Virus record (IMG/VR): IMGVR_UViG_3300036761_000155
Coordinates: 1-46,254 of that record
Source of the DNA: a virus
Reading direction: 5' to 3' (one strand)
DNA: 46,254 nt
Shown: positions 10,179-45,000 of the stretch, piece after piece
How the letters are laid out: the number at the start of each line of letters is the position of its first letter
Numbering within the stretch: the first letter of the stretch is position 1
The notes under the pieces: generated by a model
Database searches by the model: none
The model's input: only the letters and a program-made list of their open reading frames with translations
What the model was told of the DNA's origin: nothing
Made by a program: the position numbers and the translations under genes

Positions 10179-10859
10179 CTATGTCTTGGGCTGTTTTGGC
10201 TTGGGCAGGTGAACTTCGAACTTGTCGCGCTTTTCATCGGCCACATCGACAATAGCACGTGTTGCGCTGATCGGCATGTCTGGCGTACACGGATAGGAAA
10301 CATCGTCACCCATTTCTTTCGCAATCTGCGCCAGTATCTCGCGGGCTTGTTCTATGTTAGGACCCCTAATTGTCTCTACCTTGCGCTGAGCCATAAGGCC
10401 ATCTTTCGCCTTGTAAAACTCAATGCGCGTTTCCTTTTGTGGCTCCATGCACAGTTTGTACATTTCCTCAAGACGCATGATACGAATTGTCTTGTTGGCG
10501 CACGCAACATGCTTTCGTGGGAAGTCTTCGATTGCTTTGCGCATCTCCATGATCTTCGTGTAGTACTTGCACTTGGCTGTTGGCGTGCCGTACTGGTCTC
10601 TGGGGAATGCCGCTGATACACGTTTGACCCACCAATGCTTTCGAGCCTCTTCGCTCATACCAGTGGGGTAGGTCTGGAACTCTTGCATGCTCGCCATTAC
10701 AATGCTACTCAGCTTCACCCCGCGCCATGCCGCAATATCATTGCAAATGAACTCAGTGTGTTCCTCTGTCAACCAGTTCACCTTTCTCGGCCTCTCATGC
10801 GCGTTCGTGCGCGCGCGCGGAGTCCCGGATATTCCTTTGGTTTCATTCATTTTGGTCAT
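10179..10859 (-). CDS. Terminase small subunit, putative
   Basis: This is a 226-residue protein with a basic N-terminus (PRARTNAHERPRKVNWLTEE) and a helical DNA-binding-like region (EEHTEFICNDIAAWRGVKL). The C-terminus is Lys/Pro-rich. It sits immediately before the large subunit with an 8-base gap. The family is not certain from sequence, so the name rests mainly on position, size and basic character. It would recognise the packaging site and load the large subunit. Confidence 0.6.
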   Translation of the reverse strand: MTKMNETKGISGTPRARTNAHERPRKVNWLTEEHTEFICNDIAAWRGVKLSSIVMASMQEFQTYPTGMSEEARKHWWVKRVSAAFPRDQYGTPTAKCKYYTKIMEMRKAIEDFPRKHVACANKTIRIMRLEEMYKLCMEPQKETRIEFYKAKDGLMAQRKVETIRGPNIEQAREILAQIAKEMGDDVSYPCTPDMPISATRAIVDVADEKRDKFEVHLPKPKQPKT

Positions 10860-11001
10860 TGCGCTTCGCTACCCGGCTCATAACATATGCGAGCTTCAGT
10901 TTTGCACGTTGTATCCATGGCCAATATGTAGGTTCATGCTCATACAACTTGCGCGCACGAGGTATGAACTCAACCTCTGTATTGCGTGGTTTGCAACGCA
11001 T
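10843..11001 (-). CDS. Small basic protein overlapping the methyltransferase 3' end
   Basis: The frame ends at 10843, inside the first codons of the small terminase, and begins at ATG 10999-11001 (52 residues) or GTG 11029-11031 (62 residues). No strong ribosome-binding site separates the choices. It overlaps the end of the methyltransferase gene. The product is basic (EFIPRARKLYEHEPTYWPW, then QRAKLKLAYVMSRVAKRND). It fills the space between two clear genes with coupling on both sides, which is the main support. Function is unknown. Confidence 0.45.
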   Translation of the reverse strand: MRCKPRNTEVEFIPRARKLYEHEPTYWPWIQRAKLKLAYVMSRVAKRNDQNE

Positions 11002-12388
11002 ACTCGTACTTGGTCTTTGTTCTTCTCTCACCGATTGCGTTCATTGGCTTATCTGCTTTAACCAATATCCCGTCGCGTATGGCAATGGCTATGTGTTTCA
11101 TCATCAATGGCGGCACGCTGTTTCCGAGACGTTCCCATTGCTGCGAATACGACCCCGTGAGTATGAAGTCATTCGGGAAGGCGCATATCCGTTTCAGTTC
11201 CGCGATGGTGAACTTGCGAACTACTGTTCCTCTTGCCCCGAATGAATCATCACTCGTTACAAACTTGCACGGCTTTTCATCCTGTTTATGCACTTTGTAA
11301 TGATTCTTGCTACTACAAGTGATTGTATCGCTGGGGCGTTTGCCGTCATTGACACGGACGGCAAACGCCCCAGCAGTATCATGCACAACTTTCCCTGTTT
11401 CCGGCAGCGCGTCACGTACACTGTACTGGTACGTCAACGGCTTCGGGTGGCACGGGTCAAGGTTCAAGTCTTCGCGCACCCCGACAAAGATTGTCCTCTG
11501 TCGAATCTGCGGAACTCCCAGCCATTGCGCGTCACACACGCGACACACTACGAGGTACCCGCTGGCCTTCATGTCACGCAGTATGTCGAGGAACATTCCC
11601 TTGCACGTACCCTTGACAAGTCCGCTGACGTTCTCGGCCACAAACACCTTGGGCTTCAATCCACGCAACAGGCGGATGTACTGCGAGAAGAGGGTCTCGT
11701 TGCACTGGCTGGCCCCATGCTCGTATTTTTTCTTGTGGCCCCATCCCTTCTCGCGCTTGCCTGCCGTGCTGAATGCCTGGCAAGGCGGGGAGCCGTCGAG
11801 CAAGTCCAGTTCTCCCACGGCAAGCCCTGTTGCACCCAGGATGTCCCGTGGCTGCACAACCTTGATGTCGCGACAGTCAAGGTGGCAGTCCTTGGTCATG
11901 TTAGCTCTGTAGCTGTTCTGCGCTGCGGGTACGAACTCATTCGCCCACACCACGCGGAATCCAGCCATGCGGTAGCCAAGGCACGACCCACCGCACCCGC
12001 TGAACGTGCTGGCAACCTTGAACCCGTTCCACTTGATGGCGTTTATTTCAGCCATTGAAGGCACTCGGTAAAGAGGCTTGCAAGTGTTCTGCCTGCTGCC
12101 TGCTGCCTGCTGCCTGCTGCCTGCTGCATTATCATTCTGCATTGTGTTGCCGTGATTGTCGGTGATGGAATGTCGGTACATTCCGTTGTTCTGAACCCGC
12201 CGTTCTCGTGAAATACTTTCATCATGTCTCCCTGTTCCCTGTTCCCTGTTCCCTGTGATCCACCATTGTGCGTGGCCGACACCGCCAATTCCATCAGCCA
12301 TGATGCTGGGACACGGTTGTGTGTTCAAGTCAATCACGTTGTGGCCGCGCGACAACTGTATCCCGAAACGTTTCAAGTGTAATTTCAC
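10970..12388 (-). CDS. C5 cytosine DNA methyltransferase with N-terminal repeat tracts
   Basis: GTG at 12386-12388 overlaps the ParB-like gene stop as GTGA; an upstream GTG at 12415 is also in frame. The 472-residue product has motif I STFSGCGG (about 127-134), the catalytic DGSPPCQAF (Cys near 203), ENVSGLV, the QRTIFVGVRED segment, a recognition-like RPSDTITC, and the terminal LGNSVPP. It transfers methyl groups to cytosine C5. The first 110 residues hold another recognition-like motif (CPSIMADGIGG) and two 7-bp repeat tracts encoding GNREQGT- and AAGSRQQ-type repeats, where slippage would shift the frame. It may protect phage DNA from restriction. Confidence 0.85.
   Translation of the reverse strand: MKLHLKRFGIQLSRGHNVIDLNTQPCPSIMADGIGGVGHAQWWITGNREQGTGRHDESISRERRVQNNGMYRHSITDNHGNTMQNDNAAGSRQQAAGSRQNTCKPLYRVPSMAEINAIKWNGFKVASTFSGCGGSCLGYRMAGFRVVWANEFVPAAQNSYRANMTKDCHLDCRDIKVVQPRDILGATGLAVGELDLLDGSPPCQAFSTAGKREKGWGHKKKYEHGASQCNETLFSQYIRLLRGLKPKVFVAENVSGLVKGTCKGMFLDILRDMKASGYLVVCRVCDAQWLGVPQIRQRTIFVGVREDLNLDPCHPKPLTYQYSVRDALPETGKVVHDTAGAFAVRVNDGKRPSDTITCSSKNHYKVHKQDEKPCKFVTSDDSFGARGTVVRKFTIAELKRICAFPNDFILTGSYSQQWERLGNSVPPLMMKHIAIAIRDGILVKADKPMNAIGERRTKTKYEYALQTTQYRG
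12089..12127. repeat. Heptanucleotide tandem repeat, tract 2
   Basis: CTGCCTG repeats five full times plus four bases, all perfect, inside the N-terminal coding region of the C5 methyltransferase just before its conserved catalytic domain. Seven is not a multiple of three, so each gain or loss of a unit shifts the frame. Confidence 0.95.
12230..12256. repeat. Heptanucleotide tandem repeat, tract 1
   Basis: CCCTGTT repeats three full times plus six bases, all perfect, about 100 bases upstream (in gene order) of tract 2 within the same methyltransferase. It is a different sequence from tract 2 but has the same 7-bp period. Confidence 0.95.
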
Positions 12389-13020
12389 TTTCCGCCGCTC
12401 CACTTGTATCCGCACTTCGGGCAGGTGTGCTCAGTGTCAATAGTCTCGTCAACCTTGCTGAACTCGTCCGGGCCTTTCCCACCGTCGCCTTCATTAGCGA
12501 ATACGGCAGAGAACTTCTCCGCATCAAAGTCCGGAAGGTCGTAGCACGGCAGCGCCGAGAAGTCAATCTCGTTCGCGATCATGAACTCATTCAGCCCGTC
12601 GTCGCTCACCTTGCCGAACTGGGACACGGCGGCGAGAATCAGCCGCGCAGCATGCCGCTTGTGCCGGCACTCCACCCAGACCACGGGCAGGGCGTCAACC
12701 TTGCGGCCTGCCGCGTCCGTGAGCGTGGCACCTTCTGCTATTGCCTGTGCAACAACTTTGTGCCGCTGGTGCCCGTCTATGACGCCGTGGGGTTTCCCTT
12801 TCAAACGCGCCACGGTCAACGGGAATGAGAACCCGTCCTTCACCATCAATGCCAGCAGTTTTCCGTAGTTTTCGCTGGACAGTTCCTTCAAATTGCCTTG
12901 CAGTCCAAGAATCTTGTTCAGCGGCATGGTATCCGCTCCTGTACAGTTTGTGCGGATAATAACTGGACTTAGTTGCTTATCCACTTTCACTTTGGCTGGA
13001 CTGCCAACTTTCTTTTTCAT
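12385..13020 (-). CDS. ParB/sulfiredoxin-fold protein with C-terminal zinc ribbon
   Basis: This is a 211-residue protein. It has GVIDGHQRHKVV (about residues 100-111), the ParB-like nuclease-domain signature 'G.i.GH.R', preceded by a LNKILGLQGN segment. The C-terminus carries CPKCGYKW after an acidic linker; only one CxxC pair is present. Phages often place a ParB-like gene directly before a DNA methyltransferase, as here (4-base overlap). It may bind DNA and assist modification or transcription control. It is not evidence for plasmid partition on its own. Confidence 0.75.
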   Translation of the reverse strand: MKKKVGSPAKVKVDKQLSPVIIRTNCTGADTMPLNKILGLQGNLKELSSENYGKLLALMVKDGFSFPLTVARLKGKPHGVIDGHQRHKVVAQAIAEGATLTDAAGRKVDALPVVWVECRHKRHAARLILAAVSQFGKVSDDGLNEFMIANEIDFSALPCYDLPDFDAEKFSAVFANEGDGGKGPDEFSKVDETIDTEHTCPKCGYKWSGGK

Positions 13021-13047
13021 GGTTTTTGGTTGGTTGTTGTGTTAGAA

Positions 13048-13860
13048 TCAAGTTGTTGGATGTTCGCCATCCACACGTTCCACCCATCTCACTGTCCATA
13101 GGTCGCTACACAAGTCACGATCCTCGATATACTCGAAGGGCATCCAACAGTCGCCCTTGTCGCCCCACTTCTCCGACCATGAGCCACGCACATGGTATTG
13201 TCCCCGCTGGGTCTTGTACCCACGTATAAGCTGCGCGTGGCCTCCTTCCTGCTTCTCCTTCTTGAGATCGGGCATTGGCACGTCGCCGGTCTTGGCCACC
13301 TCGTTCGACAAGAATGAAGTGTACAATGCTGCGCCGAAGATAATGGGCCACCCTTCTGCAAGGCATTGCATTATGGCGTTGCGAATCTGCGGCACGCGCT
13401 CATACCGCAATACCTGATGCCGTATCGCATGATTGTAGCAGTCGAGATATGGTCGCTTGAATACCATCGTCTCAACATAGGGCCATTCTGTTTCGGGCAC
13501 GAGTCCGAGCCGGGCTGCTACCTTGATCGCGTCCCGTATTCGACATCCACTGTCTACCATTACGGTGCCCTCAATGGCCCGTGTATTGAAGTAACCGAAT
13601 AGCCTTGACGGTAGCCATGCCTTCTCCTTGCCCTCCCACTGCCTGAGCATGTCTATCTGCGCCGCAATGGCCAGTGCATTCCACACGCATGATCCTACCC
13701 GTAGCTGAGTGAGTACCGGGGGGCATTTGATTGTCACCGAGTCAGGCACTTCTACTGGTGCGGTGCATGAGTAAACGAGGTCGCGCTTGTCTGGCACGTC
13801 TGGTTGCCAGCCAAACACCAAGTCCTTGACCATCAGTTCGTGCAAAGTGGAAATGCTCAT
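13048..13860 (-). CDS. Papain-like C1 family cysteine peptidase homologue
   Basis: This is a 270-residue protein. The oxyanion Gln and catalytic Cys occur in TQLRVGSCVWNALA (Gln52, Cys58), and the catalytic His in EGGHAQLIRGY (His208). The last motif, normally N-S-W-G, reads VRGSWSEKWGDKG, so the orienting Asn is replaced by Gly226. No signal peptide is seen, so it is probably cytoplasmic. It sits between the deazaguanine operon and the ParB-like gene. It could process phage or host proteins, or act without full catalytic power. Confidence 0.8.
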   Translation of the reverse strand: MSISTLHELMVKDLVFGWQPDVPDKRDLVYSCTAPVEVPDSVTIKCPPVLTQLRVGSCVWNALAIAAQIDMLRQWEGKEKAWLPSRLFGYFNTRAIEGTVMVDSGCRIRDAIKVAARLGLVPETEWPYVETMVFKRPYLDCYNHAIRHQVLRYERVPQIRNAIMQCLAEGWPIIFGAALYTSFLSNEVAKTGDVPMPDLKKEKQEGGHAQLIRGYKTQRGQYHVRGSWSEKWGDKGDCWMPFEYIEDRDLCSDLWTVRWVERVDGEHPTT

Positions 13861-13887: not shown

Positions 13888-14454
13888 CTACGTTCTGGCC
13901 GCTTGCAGGAATTCAGAACGCACGACACCATCCGACAAGAATATGCCGCGCAAGGTCTGGGTCACTGCTAATGTGTGCGCCTGTTTCACACCCCGTGCCG
14001 TCATGCACATATGACGTGCCGAGATAATCACGCCCGCGCCCACAGGGTCAATCGCTGTGCATAGTGCGTCTGCTATCTGTACCGTCATGCGCTCTTGAAT
14101 CTGTAGCCGCGCCGCGAATGCGTGTACCAGCCGGGGTAGTTTCGACAAGCCCACAATGCGCAGGTTCGGAATATAGCCGATCGTTACCGTGCCGACGAAT
14201 GGGAGCATGTAATGCTCACACAGTGATACAAAGTCGATGCTCTCCACCAGCACCATCGAGTTATACCCAGATGCATCGAAAGTGCGATTCAGAATTCGAG
14301 CCGGGTCTGCTGAGTAGCCTTCGAGCATTTCTTCATATGCTCTTGCTACTCTGTCCGGTGTGTCGATCAACCCTTCCCTATTCGGGTCGTCATAGCATTC
14401 GAGTAAAGACCGTATCGCTTGCTTTACCACAGCCTGTTTTTCTTGGTTTGTCAT
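13888..14454 (-). CDS. folE: GTP cyclohydrolase I
   Basis: ATG at 14452-14454 overlaps the radical SAM stop as ATGA and gives 188 residues. Conserved segments are DTPDRVARAYEEMLEGY, the zinc/active-site SLCEHYMLPFVG, the GLSKLPRLVHAFAARLQIQER line, and SARHMCMTARGVKQ. These match the whole of FolE. It converts GTP to dihydroneopterin triphosphate, the first step toward 7-deazaguanines. It is the last gene of the operon with QueD and QueE, so the job is likely deazaguanine rather than folate supply. Confidence 0.95.
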   Translation of the reverse strand: MTNQEKQAVVKQAIRSLLECYDDPNREGLIDTPDRVARAYEEMLEGYSADPARILNRTFDASGYNSMVLVESIDFVSLCEHYMLPFVGTVTIGYIPNLRIVGLSKLPRLVHAFAARLQIQERMTVQIADALCTAIDPVGAGVIISARHMCMTARGVKQAHTLAVTQTLRGIFLSDGVVRSEFLQAART

Positions 14455-15761
14455 TTCGTGTCCTTGGCGTCGGTTATTATGCCGAGCTTCGCAGCTTGTG
14501 CCATGAGAGCGTAGGCCGTATGATTGTCTCCGCAAAGGTCACGCACTGTCCAATTACCATCGCACGCATCGAGAAGGTCTGTGCCTTGCGACATTGAGCC
14601 ATACAGGTTCACCCACTTGTGTTCATCCTCCGTGTACAGTCTGTTCTGTACCGGGATGCAAGAATCGAATGCGTTGCCAACATAAGACGGTCTTAGCCGC
14701 AGGGGCGTGCCGGGAAGCATCCTGCCGTGCCCAAGGGCCGCTTCGTAGCCGTTCGTCATAGGATATGGCTGGTAGAATTGACCAAGACCGCCTACCGATG
14801 ATTGAGTGCGCAGGCGTGGCAATAGGTCATCCCACGCCGTGCCGTGGTCGCGATAGAAGTCTCCGCTCATGTTCAGTGTGCTGATCGTCTCCATCGGGAA
14901 AAGTGAAACGGACAACCAGAACGTCTTGAGACCGCTCGCGAGTATCGCGCCCATGCTCTGCTTCTTGTTGAGCACTTCTGGGGACACTGCTTCGAGTCCG
15001 ATTTCAGTTAGCCAGTGGCCAGCGTTCTCAAGCTGCCCTACCGTGACACCGCTTTCGAGTGCCTTTGACACACTGATGCTGTCAGCAAGAGCAATCCACA
15101 TAAGCCCCTTGCCGTCCAAGTGCCGTATGATGTCATTGAAGTGGGGATGCGCATAGAAGTTTTCGTCCTCGAAATGCAGGTTCACTTTCATCTCGATTGC
15201 TTCGTCAATCACCCGCAGGCATTCCGCAAGGGGGCGAACGCCTTTGCCGTACCACGGGCCGCTCACGTAGCAATAGGGGCAGTTCCTTGTACAGCCTAAC
15301 GACATGAACACAGGCAAGAAGGGTCGTGCGTCGTGGCACTTGACATGGCTGTCGATGGTCGCGTACCCTCGTCTGAAGGCTCCCAACTGCTCATGGAATT
15401 TCCATACACCTGTCAGAATGTCCACGGGCAGTTCGTTTGGCTTGAGAAAGTTCAAGCCCGGTGCGAATGGCCCGTACCCTACAAAGTGCAACGTGCGCAT
15501 GCTGGCCTTGTAGTGCCGACTGAGTTCGAGAGCCGCTTCTATCTGTGGTGCGCTGGACACATCGACAAAAATGTTCGAGCCCATTGGCGCATTGTCAATC
15601 ACGTCGCAGGCGTTGTCGAATGTACAATCCTCATGCAGTGCCGGGACATGACCGGCAGCACGCAACGCTGAGTATAGCCAGTATGGCATGTAGCAAATGC
15701 TGGCGCGTACCTGCTCCCATGTAGCCAACTGGATTATGATTGTCTGGTTGTTCAAGTTCAT
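14451..15761 (-). CDS. Radical SAM enzyme in the 7-deazaguanine operon
   Basis: This is a 436-residue protein. The 4Fe-4S motif is SLGCTRNCPYCYVSG near residue 155 (CxxxCxxC), followed by HFEDENFYAHP and a TIM-barrel-like region with GLEAVSPEVLNKK. The first 130 residues resemble the nucleotide-like fold seen before radical SAM domains in the B12-binding class (YMPYWLYSALRAAGHVPAL), but the DxHxxG cobalamin ligand motif is absent. The C-terminus adds a winged-helix-like piece. It is flanked by QueE/QueD upstream and FolE downstream, so it probably modifies a deazaguanine product or its DNA form. The substrate is unknown. Confidence 0.75.
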   Translation of the reverse strand: MNLNNQTIIIQLATWEQVRASICYMPYWLYSALRAAGHVPALHEDCTFDNACDVIDNAPMGSNIFVDVSSAPQIEAALELSRHYKASMRTLHFVGYGPFAPGLNFLKPNELPVDILTGVWKFHEQLGAFRRGYATIDSHVKCHDARPFLPVFMSLGCTRNCPYCYVSGPWYGKGVRPLAECLRVIDEAIEMKVNLHFEDENFYAHPHFNDIIRHLDGKGLMWIALADSISVSKALESGVTVGQLENAGHWLTEIGLEAVSPEVLNKKQSMGAILASGLKTFWLSVSLFPMETISTLNMSGDFYRDHGTAWDDLLPRLRTQSSVGGLGQFYQPYPMTNGYEAALGHGRMLPGTPLRLRPSYVGNAFDSCIPVQNRLYTEDEHKWVNLYGSMSQGTDLLDACDGNWTVRDLCGDNHTAYALMAQAAKLGIITDAKDTK

Positions 15762-15774
15762 GTGGGCCTCCTCG

Positions 15775-15903
15775 TCATGCTGCCGTTACTGAATGCGAAG
15801 CCTTTTGCCGTTCGCTGGTATACCGTCGCGCATTGTCGTCTGTGGTCATCACATAGCATGGCCGTATGAACGTGCATGCAACGCTACTCTGTGCCATTCG
15901 CAT
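15775..15903 (-). CDS. Possible 42-residue small protein
   Basis: A short frame fills the 158-base gap between the T-fold gene stop (15920) and the radical SAM start (15761). ATG lies at 15901-15903 and the stop at 15775. The product opens MRMAQSSVACTFIRPCYVM and is basic at the end. The ribosome-binding site is weak and no family is recognised. The gap may instead be untranslated. Confidence 0.25.
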   Translation of the reverse strand: MRMAQSSVACTFIRPCYVMTTDDNARRYTSERQKASHSVTAA

Positions 15904-15919
15904 TTTTTCGTTTCCGATT

Positions 15920-16291
15920 TCACTGCCGCGCTGCGCAGTCGGCTGACCATATGGCACCGTTTTCGTTATCTTCGAGCACTGCCACTTGAATGCAGCGAAA
16001 CATCGTACCCAGTGAACGTGCCATCATTTCGCAGCTATTCGTCGTGGGTCGCTTGCAGTACAATGCCTGTGCTGCCTTCTCCATCTGCTCTTTCAACTCA
16101 ATGAATTCGACTGCTCGGTCGTCATGCGATACGCCTTTCGTGACTGATACGTGAAACACATGCCGATGCGGATGCTGTAGAATTGAGTTCCGGGGCGCGC
16201 CCGGCCAGTAATGCACTGCTGCGAATTGAAACTTCACAATGATGACCATCGTGCCCGACTGCACGGCTGGCGTGTCCTTGGTGGCCTTCAT
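15920..16291 (-). CDS. Second T-fold (QueD/PTPS-like) protein
   Basis: ATG at 16289-16291 overlaps the QueE stop as ATGA, giving 123 residues. It has KFQFAAVHYWPGAP, then LQHPHRHVFHVSV and SHDDRAVEFIELKEQM, then SCEMMARSLGTMF and AVLEDNENGAIW. The His spacing (HYW, HPHRHVFH) is that of the zinc-binding triad of 6-pyruvoyl/6-carboxy tetrahydropterin synthases, and the acidic tail parallels QueD. The catalytic Cys of true QueD is not obvious. It may be a diverged paralogue with a new substrate in the same pathway. Confidence 0.6.
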   Translation of the reverse strand: MKATKDTPAVQSGTMVIIVKFQFAAVHYWPGAPRNSILQHPHRHVFHVSVTKGVSHDDRAVEFIELKEQMEKAAQALYCKRPTTNSCEMMARSLGTMFRCIQVAVLEDNENGAIWSADCAARQ

Positions 16292-16911
16292 CGAATGCCT
16301 ATCATCTTGTGACATTGAAGCGATAGCCGCCAGTGCGGATGCAACTGGAGCCATTCGAGGCACATAGGCAAGCTCATTTCGATGCCCGTCTGTTTCGACC
16401 ATAGTGGCTGAATGAAACGGTGCCGCGCAAGCCTGTGGTCGTATTCTGCTGGCTGGTGCTCGATGCCGGGGCCGTATACGATCTTCAATTCGTCCGCATT
16501 GCGTAAAGTGTATCCGGGCGACTTCGGTGAACATGTCACCCACGGGTCTACGTGGTGAATGAGTTCATCAGGCATGTCGATGGTGCCATTCGTTTCGATT
16601 GACTGATGCACCCATCCCATGTCATGCAGCATCACTGCCGCGATTGCCAGTCGTGATGCTTGCAGCAATGGCTCGCCGCCAGTCCATATGATCCGCTTCA
16701 CCTTGAAGCCGTGATGCAATTCCATGGCAAGCTCTTTGGGAGTCAACCGCATTGTCTCCTTGTGGTTCGTGTCACACCACGGGCATGACATGTTGCACCC
16801 GGCCATGCGGATGAACACCGCAGGCGTTCCCACGAGCATGCCTTCCCCTTGTATGCTCTGAAACACCTCCGCAATCGACAACACGCTTTCGTCTGTGCTG
16901 GGGATGTCCAT
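16288..16911 (-). CDS. queE: 7-carboxy-7-deazaguanine synthase
   Basis: This is a 207-residue protein with ATG at 16911 and a GGAGAC site. It begins with EVFQSIQGEGMLVGTPAVF (substrate-binding QGEG), then the radical SAM motif AGCNMSCPWCDTNHKE (CxxxCxxC), IIWTGGEPLLQ, and ETNGTIDMPDEL, then CSPKSPG. These match QueE through most of its length. It turns 6-carboxytetrahydropterin into CDG using SAM and an Fe-S cluster. It is second in the operon after queD. Confidence 0.93.
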   Translation of the reverse strand: MDIPSTDESVLSIAEVFQSIQGEGMLVGTPAVFIRMAGCNMSCPWCDTNHKETMRLTPKELAMELHHGFKVKRIIWTGGEPLLQASRLAIAAVMLHDMGWVHQSIETNGTIDMPDELIHHVDPWVTCSPKSPGYTLRNADELKIVYGPGIEHQPAEYDHRLARHRFIQPLWSKQTGIEMSLPMCLEWLQLHPHWRLSLQCHKMIGIR

Positions 16912-16924
16912 GGTCGTCTCCGGT

Positions 16925-17311
16925 TCAGTTCTGCACGTACATGCGTTCCTTGCCGACTTTCACCGCTGGGTAGTACTCAGCCGTACTGCCTTTCGTCTCG
17001 GTGACAGTCACGCAGTTCACCTGCGCCCGCGTCGAGCTTATGACTTCGCTCACAGCGGCAGCAATGTAGCAGGCAATGCGTTCGGCGGTCGGCTGTTTCA
17101 ACGTGTCGTTCAACGTCTTGTGGTCGAGCCCACGTACCACGTCACGCAGCAGCGCAAAGTCCACGACCATGCCGTGTGCGTCGAGGGCGTCTGCTACCAC
17201 TGAGATTTCTACTTTCCAGTTGTGTCCGTGCATGCGTGCGCACGGTGAATCACCGGGCAAGGTCAACTGGTGCGCCGCTGCAATACGAGTTTTCATTACT
17301 ACTCGGTACAT
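16925..17311 (-). CDS. queD: 6-carboxy-5,6,7,8-tetrahydropterin synthase
   Basis: This is a 128-residue protein with ATG at 17311 preceded by AGGAGA. It shows TRIAAAHQL, the catalytic Cys with zinc ligands in SPCARMHGHNWKVEI, the VVDFALLRDVV line with LDHKTLND, PTAERIACYIA and VTVTETKGSTAEY. These are all QueD hallmarks, at the usual length. It acts on dihydroneopterin triphosphate made by FolE. It is the first gene behind the divergent promoter at 17362-17390. Confidence 0.94.
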   Translation of the reverse strand: MYRVVMKTRIAAAHQLTLPGDSPCARMHGHNWKVEISVVADALDAHGMVVDFALLRDVVRGLDHKTLNDTLKQPTAERIACYIAAAVSEVISSTRAQVNCVTVTETKGSTAEYYPAVKVGKERMYVQN

Positions 17312-23649: not shown

Positions 23650-24179
23650 CGTTGTTCTCCTGTGGGTTGTGTTGTCAGTCGTTTCCTTTGTCGGTACGCC
23701 TTCATGTACGCCTTCTGGTACGCCTTGTACTCGGCGGTCTGTCTGTACGCCTTCCGGTACGCCTTGCGCTCGGCGGTCTGGTGGTACGCCTTGCGCTCGG
23801 CGGTCTGGTTGTACGCCTTCTGGTACGCATTGTACTCGGCGGTCTGTCTGTACGCCTTCTGGTACGCCTTCTTGTACGCCTTGTCCTCGGCGGTCTGTCT
23901 GTACGCCTTCTGGTACGCCTTGCCCTCGGCGGTCTGTCTGTACGCCTTCTGGTACGCCTTGTACTCGGCGGTCTGTCTGTACGCCTTCTGGTATGCCTTC
24001 TGGTACGCCTTGTACTCGGCGGTCTGGTGGTACGCCTTCTGGTACGCCTTGTACTCTTCTGGGTGCGCGTTTACCCGCTGTGATTTCAGTTCTCTTTCCG
24101 ACGGGACTTCCGTGAACAGGCCAGCCATGCGCATGTACGCAAGTTCGTATTCTTCTCTTATCACTCGCTGCCTGTTCAC
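23646..24179 (-). CDS. KAYQ/KAYRQTAE tandem-repeat protein
   Basis: This is a 177-residue protein. After a 40-residue leader (MNRQRVIREEYELAYMRMAG), residues 42-160 are tandem modules of KAYQ (4 residues) and KAYRQTAEY (9 residues), usually joined as 13-residue blocks, with small changes (KAYHQTAER, KAYNQTAE). The tail is basic (YRQRKRLTTQPT). It would form a long, basic, Tyr-rich helix. Similar Tyr/Lys/Gln repeat proteins occur in phages near HNH-type genes, but no HNH motif is present. Nucleic acid binding is a guess. Confidence 0.6.
   Translation of the reverse strand: MNRQRVIREEYELAYMRMAGLFTEVPSERELKSQRVNAHPEEYKAYQKAYHQTAEYKAYQKAYQKAYRQTAEYKAYQKAYRQTAEGKAYQKAYRQTAEDKAYKKAYQKAYRQTAEYNAYQKAYNQTAERKAYHQTAERKAYRKAYRQTAEYKAYQKAYMKAYRQRKRLTTQPTGEQR
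23697..24057. repeat. Modular 12-bp and 27-bp tandem DNA repeats
   Basis: The DNA under the KAYQ protein is built from 12-bp and 27-bp units, often as 39-bp blocks, for about 360 bases. All units are multiples of three, so changes in copy number keep the reading frame. The repeats are nearly identical at nucleotide level, pointing to recent expansion. Confidence 0.85.
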
Positions 24180-42015: not shown

Positions 42016-45000
42016 TTACTTTTTTTCGACCACGAGTGAACATGGTCCAAAGGTTATCGTTTTTGCATTGGTAGTGAACTGTCTAACATATATGCCGACA
42101 TGCGTATTCGCATTCATTGGCGTTACACCTTCAATGGCAATCTGCATCGGCGCATTAGGATTCACGAATCGTTTCGAGAATTGCGGTATGTACACGTCGC
42201 CGATGAATACCGCGAGTTCGTAGTCGACCACGCTTGATGAAGTGTCGAGCATGAAATTGCCGGATATTCTATATATGCCTTGTTTCTTTGGTTGCAGTTG
42301 TGCAATGAACTGGTAGGTCGGTACATTCGTAGGCGGGTACATCTGCATCCACGTTTCATCCGCTGGAGTCTTCTCCCATCCTGTATGCGCGTACTCGTGA
42401 AAGTTCGTAAACAAAATCCATACGCCGTTTGCAGGCAATGAATACGTGACACCGTCGGAAAGCATGCCTGTGCGCCATAGGTTAGCGTATACATACAGAT
42501 TGCTAAAGATATGGTACTGGTTCATATCCATGTTGCCTGTCATTGGCAATAAACCATCGCGCCTCAAGTATGTCGAATTCACGAATGGCCGTTCTACTTC
42601 AACAGTGTAGTTCACATTCACCACATCGTTACTGTGTTGCGAACCACTTTCGGGATTGCCTACGTGCAGTGGCGCGAGCTTCCCGGATGCGCTTGACGCC
42701 GCGTTCGTGAACACCGCCATGCCACCGCCGGGCACAATAGCGGACGCTGGATCGTACACATTGGCGATTGAGTATCGAGACACATTGTCCAAGAACACTA
42801 TCGACGGGCCGGTCATCGCAGGCGAATCGGCCAACAGTGTCACCTTGTTCGTGGCCGTGTCGGCGTTTCCTGTTCTTGCCGTGACAGCCTTCGCGTATAG
42901 TGGTGCATAGGTGAATGCAATTGCCGCATCAGGCGCGTAACCATACCCGGTCATAGATAGAAGGTGCAACCCGTCATTGTACCTGTTGACTATGGACACA
43001 ATGCTACCCAGTGTATACATGTCCAAATAAGGGCCTGCGCCCATCAATACCTGATCGGCCTTGAGCCTGACATTCTGATTCATCGTCGGATTCGTAACCA
43101 TCAATCCTCTTGCGAATGACGTTTTCAATTCTATGCTGTTCGTGAGCACATTATAATTCACCGCGCAGAAGCCCTTCTTGTTCTCGATGCCTTCGTCTGC
43201 GTCTGCTACATACAGCCGTGCATATGCACTGCCATATACTTTTCCACTGCCGGTTTTCACGCTCAAGCCTTGACCGTACTTTCCTACTAAGGTCACAGTC
43301 TCCCCCCAGTTGTCCCAGTCAATATACGGGCCGCATCCGAATGTCGCGCCGTCCGTCGTGCCCAGCCATAGATTCATACTCGGGTGCGCTATGTTTGTCA
43401 AGCCTAAGTTCGTGAACCATGCCGTACCGCCGCTGGACAATTTGGAAGCAGTAGCGAGTTGCACTTCGTTTGTCACGCAACGATAGTTCATGAGGCAATC
43501 GCCTTTTCTATTCCATGATCCTTCATCCGCGTCTGCCGCATACACTCTGCACAAGCCTGTATATTCAGTCAAGGTCTTTCCCAGTCCGTTCATGAATATC
43601 AAGCCCATACCTGATCTGCTGGCAATCGAGAAGTTATTGCCCCACACATTGAAGTCCATCCATGACCCGTTGCCTGATGTCGTATACGTGCTGCCCAGTC
43701 GCAAGCTCACCATGTCTTGAGCATAGTTCGTTATCGTGAATGTGCCATCCACACTTTCACCCACTGATGTTATTCTGTTTGACAAATCCGTCTCTACCCA
43801 TGATGCCCGATTCGATTCGGCGACTATCTGGTTCGACAAGCTGCCATCTATCCAAGCCGTGAGATTCGATATAGCAACAATCTGGTTCGATAGACTTCCA
43901 TCTACCCATGCTGTCGTGTTCGATAGTCCGACTACCTGATTCGACAAGCTGGTCTCCACCCATGCGGCCCTGTTCGATTCGGCTACTACCTGATTCGATA
44001 TGCTGCCGTCTACTATCGCGAACGCATTCGATACTGCAATGATCTGATTCGATAAACTTCCGTCCACCCTTGAAAGCATGTTCGACAATGCGACAATTTG
44101 ATTCGATACTGATGTCTCTACCCATGCAGCCCTATTCGATTCTGCCACAACCTGATTCGATATGCTACCGTCCACCCATGATGTCCGGTTCGATAGTGCA
44201 ATTACCTGATTCGATATGCTTGTGTCCACTACCGCCATTGTATTCGACAATGCTGCCAACTGATTCGAGACCGAGCCGATCTGATTCGATAGACTTGTTT
44301 CTACCCACGAGGCACGGTTCGATTCCGATACGATCTGATTCGATATGCTGCCGTCTATCCACGCCATTGTATTCGACAATGCGCTCACCTGATTCGATAC
44401 CGCTACCGTCTGATTCGACAGTGATGCCTCCACCACAGAAGCACGATTGCTTTCAGCGAGTATCTGATTCGAGAGCGAATGCGTAATGCCCGCATAGGTG
44501 CCGGACACCGCCACGATTGTATTCGATAGCGTGCCTTCAGTCCATGATGCTCTGTTCGATTCTATTATCACCATGTTCGATACGCCACCAATAGCAGTCG
44601 TGAACTCGTTCGACAAGAATGTTTCAACCCATGCCGCTCGGTTGCTTTCGGCCACAACCTGATTCGATACGCTGCCGTCTACAAGCGCGCACGTATTTGA
44701 CACCGATACGATCTGGTTCGACATGTATGTCTCCACCCACGAGGCGCGATTGCTTTCGGCCACAACCTGATTCGACAAACTACCGTCAACGAGCGCGCAG
44801 CTATTCGATAGAGCGACTATCTGATTCGACACGTTCGCCTCGACCCATGAAGCGCGGTTGCTTTCCGCTACCACTTGATTCGATATGCTGCCTGATACGA
44901 GCGCGGCACCGTTCGACACGGCAACGATCTGGTTCGACAAGCTCGTCTCCACAGTCGTTGCTCGATTCGATTCAGCCGACGTGCTGGTTGTCGATGCTTG

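Follow-up and report, generated by a model that had tools for sequence, protein, structure and literature searches.

That bacteria vary surface and methyltransferase genes in phase by means of repeats is textbook knowledge. Can a phage use the same device on its own DNA modification enzyme and, if so, what would the repeats switch? The question is raised by a 46,254-base virus record (IMG/VR IMGVR_UViG_3300036761_000155; "the window" below means this whole stretch), whose genes lie mainly on the minus strand. An initial annotation had proposed that one of them, a C5 methyltransferase gene with two different heptanucleotide tracts near its 5' end, is a candidate for phase-variable phage modification.

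Two heptanucleotide tracts in a ParB-associated C5 methyltransferase gene

The product of this minus-strand gene matches PF00145 in Pfam (E=2.1e-53), and the C5 methyltransferase motifs FSGCGG (I), PPCQ (IV), ENV (VI) and QxRxR (VIII) were aligned, with a TRD before motif IX; its assignment as a C5-cytosine DNA methyltransferase is sound. The mechanically called ORF (10970-12415) starts at a GTG, 12415, that still belongs to the ParB-like gene next upstream. Translation probably begins at GTG 12388, in a GTGA that overlaps the TGA stop of the ParB-like gene; most relatives with a module begin in a -1 overlap of this kind (ATGA or GTGA) with the ParB-like stop, and we infer translational coupling of the methyltransferase to the ParB-like gene. 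From GTG 12388 the frame is open across both tracts into the methyltransferase, as the initial annotation had it, and this start, at the ParB-like stop, disposes of its caveat that the gene might begin after the tracts, for example at 12055. The core shared with phage relatives begins at about 12079-12055, near KPLYRVPSMAEIN, 329 nt from the ParB-like stop. The ORF upstream of this core is homologous to the extensions of relatives, and the tracts therefore lie in N-terminal coding sequence (Table 1).

Table 1. Features of the methyltransferase locus in window coordinates.
Feature	Position	Strand	Remarks
ParB-like protein gene, C-terminal CPKCGYKWSGGK	12385..13020	-	PHROGs 498/620; directly upstream of the methyltransferase
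Present-state ORF: s1, tract A, out-of-frame s2, tract B, C5 methyltransferase core	10970..12388	-	472 aa, GTG 12388
Module s1 (VKLHLKRFGIQLSRGHNVIDLNTQPCPSIMADGIGGVGHAQWWI), TRD-like, in frame with core	12257..12388	-	tblastn to relatives' extensions and alignment
Tract A	12229-12256	-	4 perfect 7-nt units, ACAGGGA on gene strand; directly 3' of s1; TRF: TCCCTGT x4.0, 100% matches
Module s2 (MMKVFHENGGFRTTECTDIPSPTITATQCRMIM...), TRD-like, intact, at present in a different frame	12128..12225	-	module HMM
Tract B	12089-12127	-	5.6 perfect 7-nt units, GCAGCAG on gene strand; between s2 and core; TRF: CTGCCTG x5.6, 100% matches
Catalytic core (KPLYRVPSMAEIN...): C5 methyltransferase motifs, internal TRD, motif X GNSVPP (Asn)	10970..12079	-	conserved

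The TRF matches confirm both perfect tracts, and the measured gap of 101 bp agrees with the spacing of about 100 bp given earlier. The second tract had been described as 3.9 copies from 12230; it is indeed a perfect 7-nt repeat, but starts at 12229 and holds 4.0 copies. The unit types on the gene strand are AACAGGG in tract A and AGCAGGC in tract B. Nowhere else in the 46,254-base window is there a copy of the tract B unit, nor a further exact copy of that of tract A, for which a single two-mismatch match was found at 42527. When the 330-bp region was dinucleotide-shuffled 500 times, no shuffle contained a 7-bp tract of at least 20 nt; the initial annotation had judged two such tracts unlikely by chance. 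As in phase-variable genes, the repeats are tandem, lie in coding sequence and have a unit length that is no multiple of three. At its end tract A provides AGGGAG, a Shine-Dalgarno-like sequence, upstream of ATG 12225, forming AGGGAGACATGATG ahead of the s2 start. The window also contains long in-frame coding repeats with periods of 39-129 bp at 23705-24051, and others with periods of 54/108/162 bp at 43790-44941, inside a 1064-aa ORF.

The tracts adjoin two TRD-like modules

The end of s1 coincides exactly with the start of tract A, and the end of s2 with the start of tract B. Module s1 gave tblastn matches to the N-terminal extensions of relatives (L128, L130, L141, L142, L144 and others). 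Module s2 lies in an ORF that runs from ATG 12225 through tract B to TAA 12043. It was recognised by the module HMM alone (20.4 bits, E=1.8e-4, with the database size set to 10,000 for all E-values of this model), from whose training set it is absent; nothing convincing was found in Pfam and PHROGs, and all tblastn matches of s2 alone to phage and plasmid sequences had E>1. At E<1e-3 the module HMM matched 43 of 101 sequences (internal TRD regions and s2), but none of 303 shuffles and none of 99 catalytic parts. The internal TRD of the window enzyme is short (85 aa) and matches the model weakly (8.3 bits). In an AlphaFold2 model of the L128 protein (mean pLDDT 77.9) the module comprises three beta strands, predicted with low to moderate confidence. 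These comparisons show that s1 and s2 resemble, in sequence, the enzyme's own target-recognition (TRD) elements.

Enzyme family and predicted product

Among solved structures the best match is SpCmoX (PDB 8yf3, E=4.6e-55, against 3.8e-23 for the runner-up), a DNA cytosine C5-carboxymethyltransferase, and many CmoX contigs encode a ParB-like neighbour (PMC12783734). Its relation to SpCmoX above other solved C5 enzymes, together with the adjacent ParB-like gene, places the window enzyme, on homology, in a broad CmoX-like ParB-associated family. The Cx-SAM specificity of SpCmoX involves a motif X Arg, R350, which binds the Cx-SAM carboxylate and in whose place HhaI has Asn (PMC12783734). The window enzyme has Asn here (GNSVPP), not Arg. 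Among the relatives, motif X has Arg in 94 and Asn in 30, and CmoA, the Cx-SAM synthase, is encoded in the locus of 80 of the 94 Arg-type enzymes and of 0 of the 30 Asn-type (Fisher 2e-18). A search for CmoA gave no match in the window, which has no end repeats that we could find and may be incomplete. Given the Asn-type motif X and no CmoA match in the window, ordinary 5mC is the predicted product. On the tree of catalytic parts one branch divides the Asn type from the rest, and the Arg/Asn split (relatives L122-L360) is a sign of one Cx-SAM/SAM cofactor change. The methyltransferase of Erwinia phage Y3 (L125:3139-5268; 709 aa) carries, at its catalytic SPPC motif, a long insert; this has VVHNC at its end and looks like an intein.

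Modules are gained, lost and exchanged at one boundary

As a single-protein query against viral contigs, the window enzyme found no close relative, and relatives were collected through family-level alignments. About a third of them have N-terminal modules of the s1/s2 kind. Across the 119 loci in which a ParB tail was found (window included), the gap from ParB to core is shorter than 60 nt in 63 and longer in 56, and the longer-gap loci mostly hold a short in-frame module, for example MILHCKKFGIRESQGMEQTDLDTNPAPAIMAQGLNGVGHGQYWIE ahead of NKPPYRVPLMSEI. Close relatives may lack a module, have one or have another in its stead, with the change at the same boundary: between the flanks ...AAATG^ and ^AAACCTCC, L159 and L171 are module-free, L146 has one type of module, and L165 and L181 have another. 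Similarly, L155 is without the module of L156 and L160, the remaining sequence being 92-95% identical. The module is fused to the core in L127, L128, L143, L146, L148, L151, L158, L160 and L181, and is out of frame in L156, L163, L165, L167, L176 and L271, as also in L133, at a G7 run; the out-of-frame modules mostly have their own frame intact. L166 is in frame across the tract, with a stop codon inside the module. In a further set of relatives (L255, L265, L340, L343, L353, L354 and L356), many of them verrucomicrobial MAG loci, a separate 83-aa ORF overlaps the ParB-like stop, unfused to the methyltransferase.

The closest relative, L206 (82-95% nt identity over shared stretches), offers no comparison of tract lengths, since the whole ParB-methyltransferase cassette is replaced there (window 10255-13076, L206 4434-8083). 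The replacement genes encode QueC, a queuine tRNA-ribosyltransferase-like (possibly DpdA-like) protein and two ParB-like proteins. The window retains GTP cyclohydrolase I, radical SAM and PTPS (QueD-like) genes at 13888-17311, and tblastn of the window with QueC gave no match. It looks as if cytosine methylation had taken the place of 7-deazaguanine modification.

Frame-shifting repeats recur at the same place in relatives

Repeats were counted with fixed thresholds, triplet-divisible periods included. The 260 nt before the core of 135 distinct relatives contain 22 non-triplet repeats in 33.8 kb (0.65 per kb), compared with 32 in 745 kb (0.043 per kb) elsewhere in the same loci, a 15-fold enrichment of frame-shifting repeats; triplet-period repeats number 0 in this region and 14 elsewhere in the loci. 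When sequences were grouped into clusters of 80% nt identity, repeats were present in 13 of the 78, with 0.87 expected (p about 1e-11). In dinucleotide shuffles, which retain the GG content of the tracts, the number of repeats averaged 4.9 and never exceeded 10, compared with the 22 observed; some poly-G runs overlap the Gly-rich codons of the module. The repeats of relatives are of several kinds (G8-10, C9, (GCAA)5 and (CAGA)6 to (CAGA)28), and on the tree of catalytic parts, whose rows do not include the CAGA loci, repeat presence changes at least 14 times. Both enzyme types have them, with 15 Arg loci (all with CmoA) and 7 Asn loci in addition to the window, so that carboxymethylation would also be phase-variable if the model set out below is right.

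Two pairs of close relatives differ in tract length and, as in phase-variable genes, in whether the module is in or out of frame. L156 (G10) is out of frame and L160 (G9) is fused, their modules being otherwise identical in the aligned part; L165 (G9) is out of frame and L181 (G8) is fused, this pair also having a few substitutions. As contigs are consensus sequences, these are differences in tract length between close relatives, not switching within a population.

No heptamer repeats occur in any other member of the methyltransferase family that we found. Tracts of the AACAGGG heptamer were present in 107 viral-contig stretches (L002-L108), unrelated to the methyltransferase gene, and may mark other slippage-prone phage genes; this unit made up 113 of the 168 heptamer tracts tallied. 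These heptamer-bearing contigs gave only distant C5 enzyme matches, and none has both heptamers together.

A predicted switch between module-enzyme fusions

The unit length of seven is not divisible by three, and each unit change shifts the frame, as the annotation had it. Frame arithmetic covered the nine phase combinations of tracts A and B. In the present phase s1 is joined to the core in a predicted protein of 472 aa, with s2 read out of frame as about 40 frame-shifted residues between the two. One combination gives s1, s2 and core in 465 aa. The third phase of tract B gives s2 and core in 413 aa from ATG 12225, and all other combinations terminate 50-112 aa after GTG 12388.

As the tracts flank two TRD-like modules, the predicted outcome of slippage is a set of alternative fusions and off states. 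In our model, translation would start at GTG 12388, coupled to the ParB-like gene, and the gain or loss of one 7-nt unit would move the reading frame by one position. Whether s1 reads into s2 would depend on the length of tract A, and whether the incoming frame reads into the core on that of tract B. At the present lengths a frame-shifted s2 would link s1 to the core; changed lengths would yield s1 with s2 and core, s2 with core, or short peptides without a full enzyme, the s2-core protein being made from ATG 12225 with the end of tract A as its ribosome site. Since s1 and s2 resemble DNA-reading TRD elements, such a switch would probably alter the sites methylated, or the efficiency of methylation, besides turning the enzyme off. 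With tracts of only 4.0 and 5.6 units, both short, slippage rates may be low.

We judge it likely that slipped-strand phase variation at the module seams decides whether, and which, module joins the enzyme, switching specificity as well as off states; for this phage we infer the slippage, the activity of the fusions, the change of specificity and its benefit. The proposal of phase-variable phage modification thus stands as the best reading, given the non-triplet repeats of relatives and their differences in tract length and frame, and is amended in one respect: the predicted outcome is not only on or off, and includes fusions of module and enzyme.

A simple on/off switch, in which the tracts only decide if a working methyltransferase is made and the modules are dispensable linkers, is a rather unlikely account. 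It is the usual mode for bacterial mod genes (PMC4525171). Most phase combinations do end at 50-112 aa, and the window has no ATG just before the conserved KPLYRVP, so that out-of-frame states may yield no full enzyme. However, an ATG stands just ahead of the core (MNKPPYRVP...) in many relatives, where the core could be made in any phase; moreover, conserved TRD-like modules that are exchanged between close relatives are unlike dispensable linkers, and two modules, each followed by its own tract, fit choice better.

It is less probable still that the heptamers are neutral, having grown without switching in a tolerant spacer between ParB and methyltransferase, with the enzyme starting at about 12055 or at an unusual start nearby. 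AACAGGG heptamers are generally common in phage contigs, as tallied above, and in module-free related phages the core begins right after the ParB-like stop. Against this, s1 and s2 are conserved homologs, the region is enriched across relatives in frame-shifting repeats and devoid of triplet-period ones, and a start at 12055 would lose the nearly invariant K-P-x-Y-x-x-P stretch. That the purine-rich AGGGA units act as variable ribosome-binding sites for s2 or the enzyme, their copy number setting the level of expression and not the protein, is very improbable: tract A does end in a sequence of this kind before the s2 start, but neither tract B (GCAGGCA) nor the (CAGA)n, (GCAA)n and poly-C tracts of relatives resemble ribosome sites, and all periods shift the frame. 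An artefact of assembly or sequencing, which can collapse short repeats in virus records such as those of IMG/VR, deserves next to no credence, as the two tracts, each without a mismatch, stand at the borders of modules and do not interrupt the frame, and repeats recur at the same place in many contigs with different record numbers.

Beyond this phage, the switching of modules by slippage may quite possibly be a general habit of a widespread phage family, in which repeats would attach and detach N-terminal TRD-like modules on both SAM- and Cx-SAM-type (5cxmC-type) enzymes and so render the specificity of modification or hypermodification phase-variable. The two-tract, two-module layout of the window is the most elaborate form among the loci compared, with three fusion products and off states possible. 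If the model holds, a single clonal phage stock would be an epigenetic mixture, presenting differently marked genomes to the host as a hedge against its restriction. Because the repeats mark the joints of TRD-like modules that can be exchanged, and carboxymethylcytosine is also among the products of this enzyme family, the diversification of phage modification specificity can be put to a direct test in a single gene with naturally occurring phase variants.

Comparison with known systems

The principle has precedents in phase-variable bacterial methyltransferases and in neuO of CUS-3; repeat-joined TRD-like modules on a phage C5 enzyme do not appear in the literature searched. That search, of full texts (with most subscription papers and all bioRxiv preprints outside its coverage), returned neither phase-variable phage C5 enzymes nor such modules. 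Cyanobacterial-type STRR heptanucleotides occur as many dispersed, mostly intergenic genome copies, whereas the window has two tracts only, both in an open coding frame.

SpCmoX is the best sequence and fold match and shares the adjacent ParB-like gene, but the window enzyme has Asn for its Cx-SAM-binding Arg, and the window gave no CmoA match. The terms phase variation, TRD, target recognition and frameshift are absent from the main text of the SpCmoX paper (PMC12783734).

Among the closest known systems are modA of Haemophilus influenzae, modM of Moraxella catarrhalis and others, DNA methyltransferase genes described as switching randomly on and off (PMC4525171, PMC6902483). They are of the same gene class and share the random switching, but are bacterial N6-adenine systems of the on/off kind, whereas here the enzyme is a phage C5-cytosine methyltransferase with repeats at the seams of its TRD-like N-terminal modules. 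The neuO gene of prophage CUS-3 in E. coli K1 has an AAGACTC heptanucleotide tract in its 5' coding region and varies in phase by slippage (PMC13001214). Like the window gene, it is phage-carried with a heptanucleotide repeat in the 5' coding region; unlike it, neuO encodes an O-acetyltransferase that changes the host capsule and has one tract, where the window has a DNA modification enzyme, here a methyltransferase, with two modules and two tracts of different units (AACAGGG and AGCAGGC).

In phase-variable bacterial methyltransferases of the modA and modM kind, switching proceeds through repeat slippage in the coding region. The multispecific C5 methyltransferases of SP-beta-group Bacillus phages carry several TRDs, always present, one after another in the stretch from motif VIII to motif IX. 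The window enzyme is likewise a phage C5 enzyme; its internal TRD is short (85 aa) and only a weak match to the module HMM, and the additional TRD-like s1 and s2 are N-terminal and joined through the tracts.
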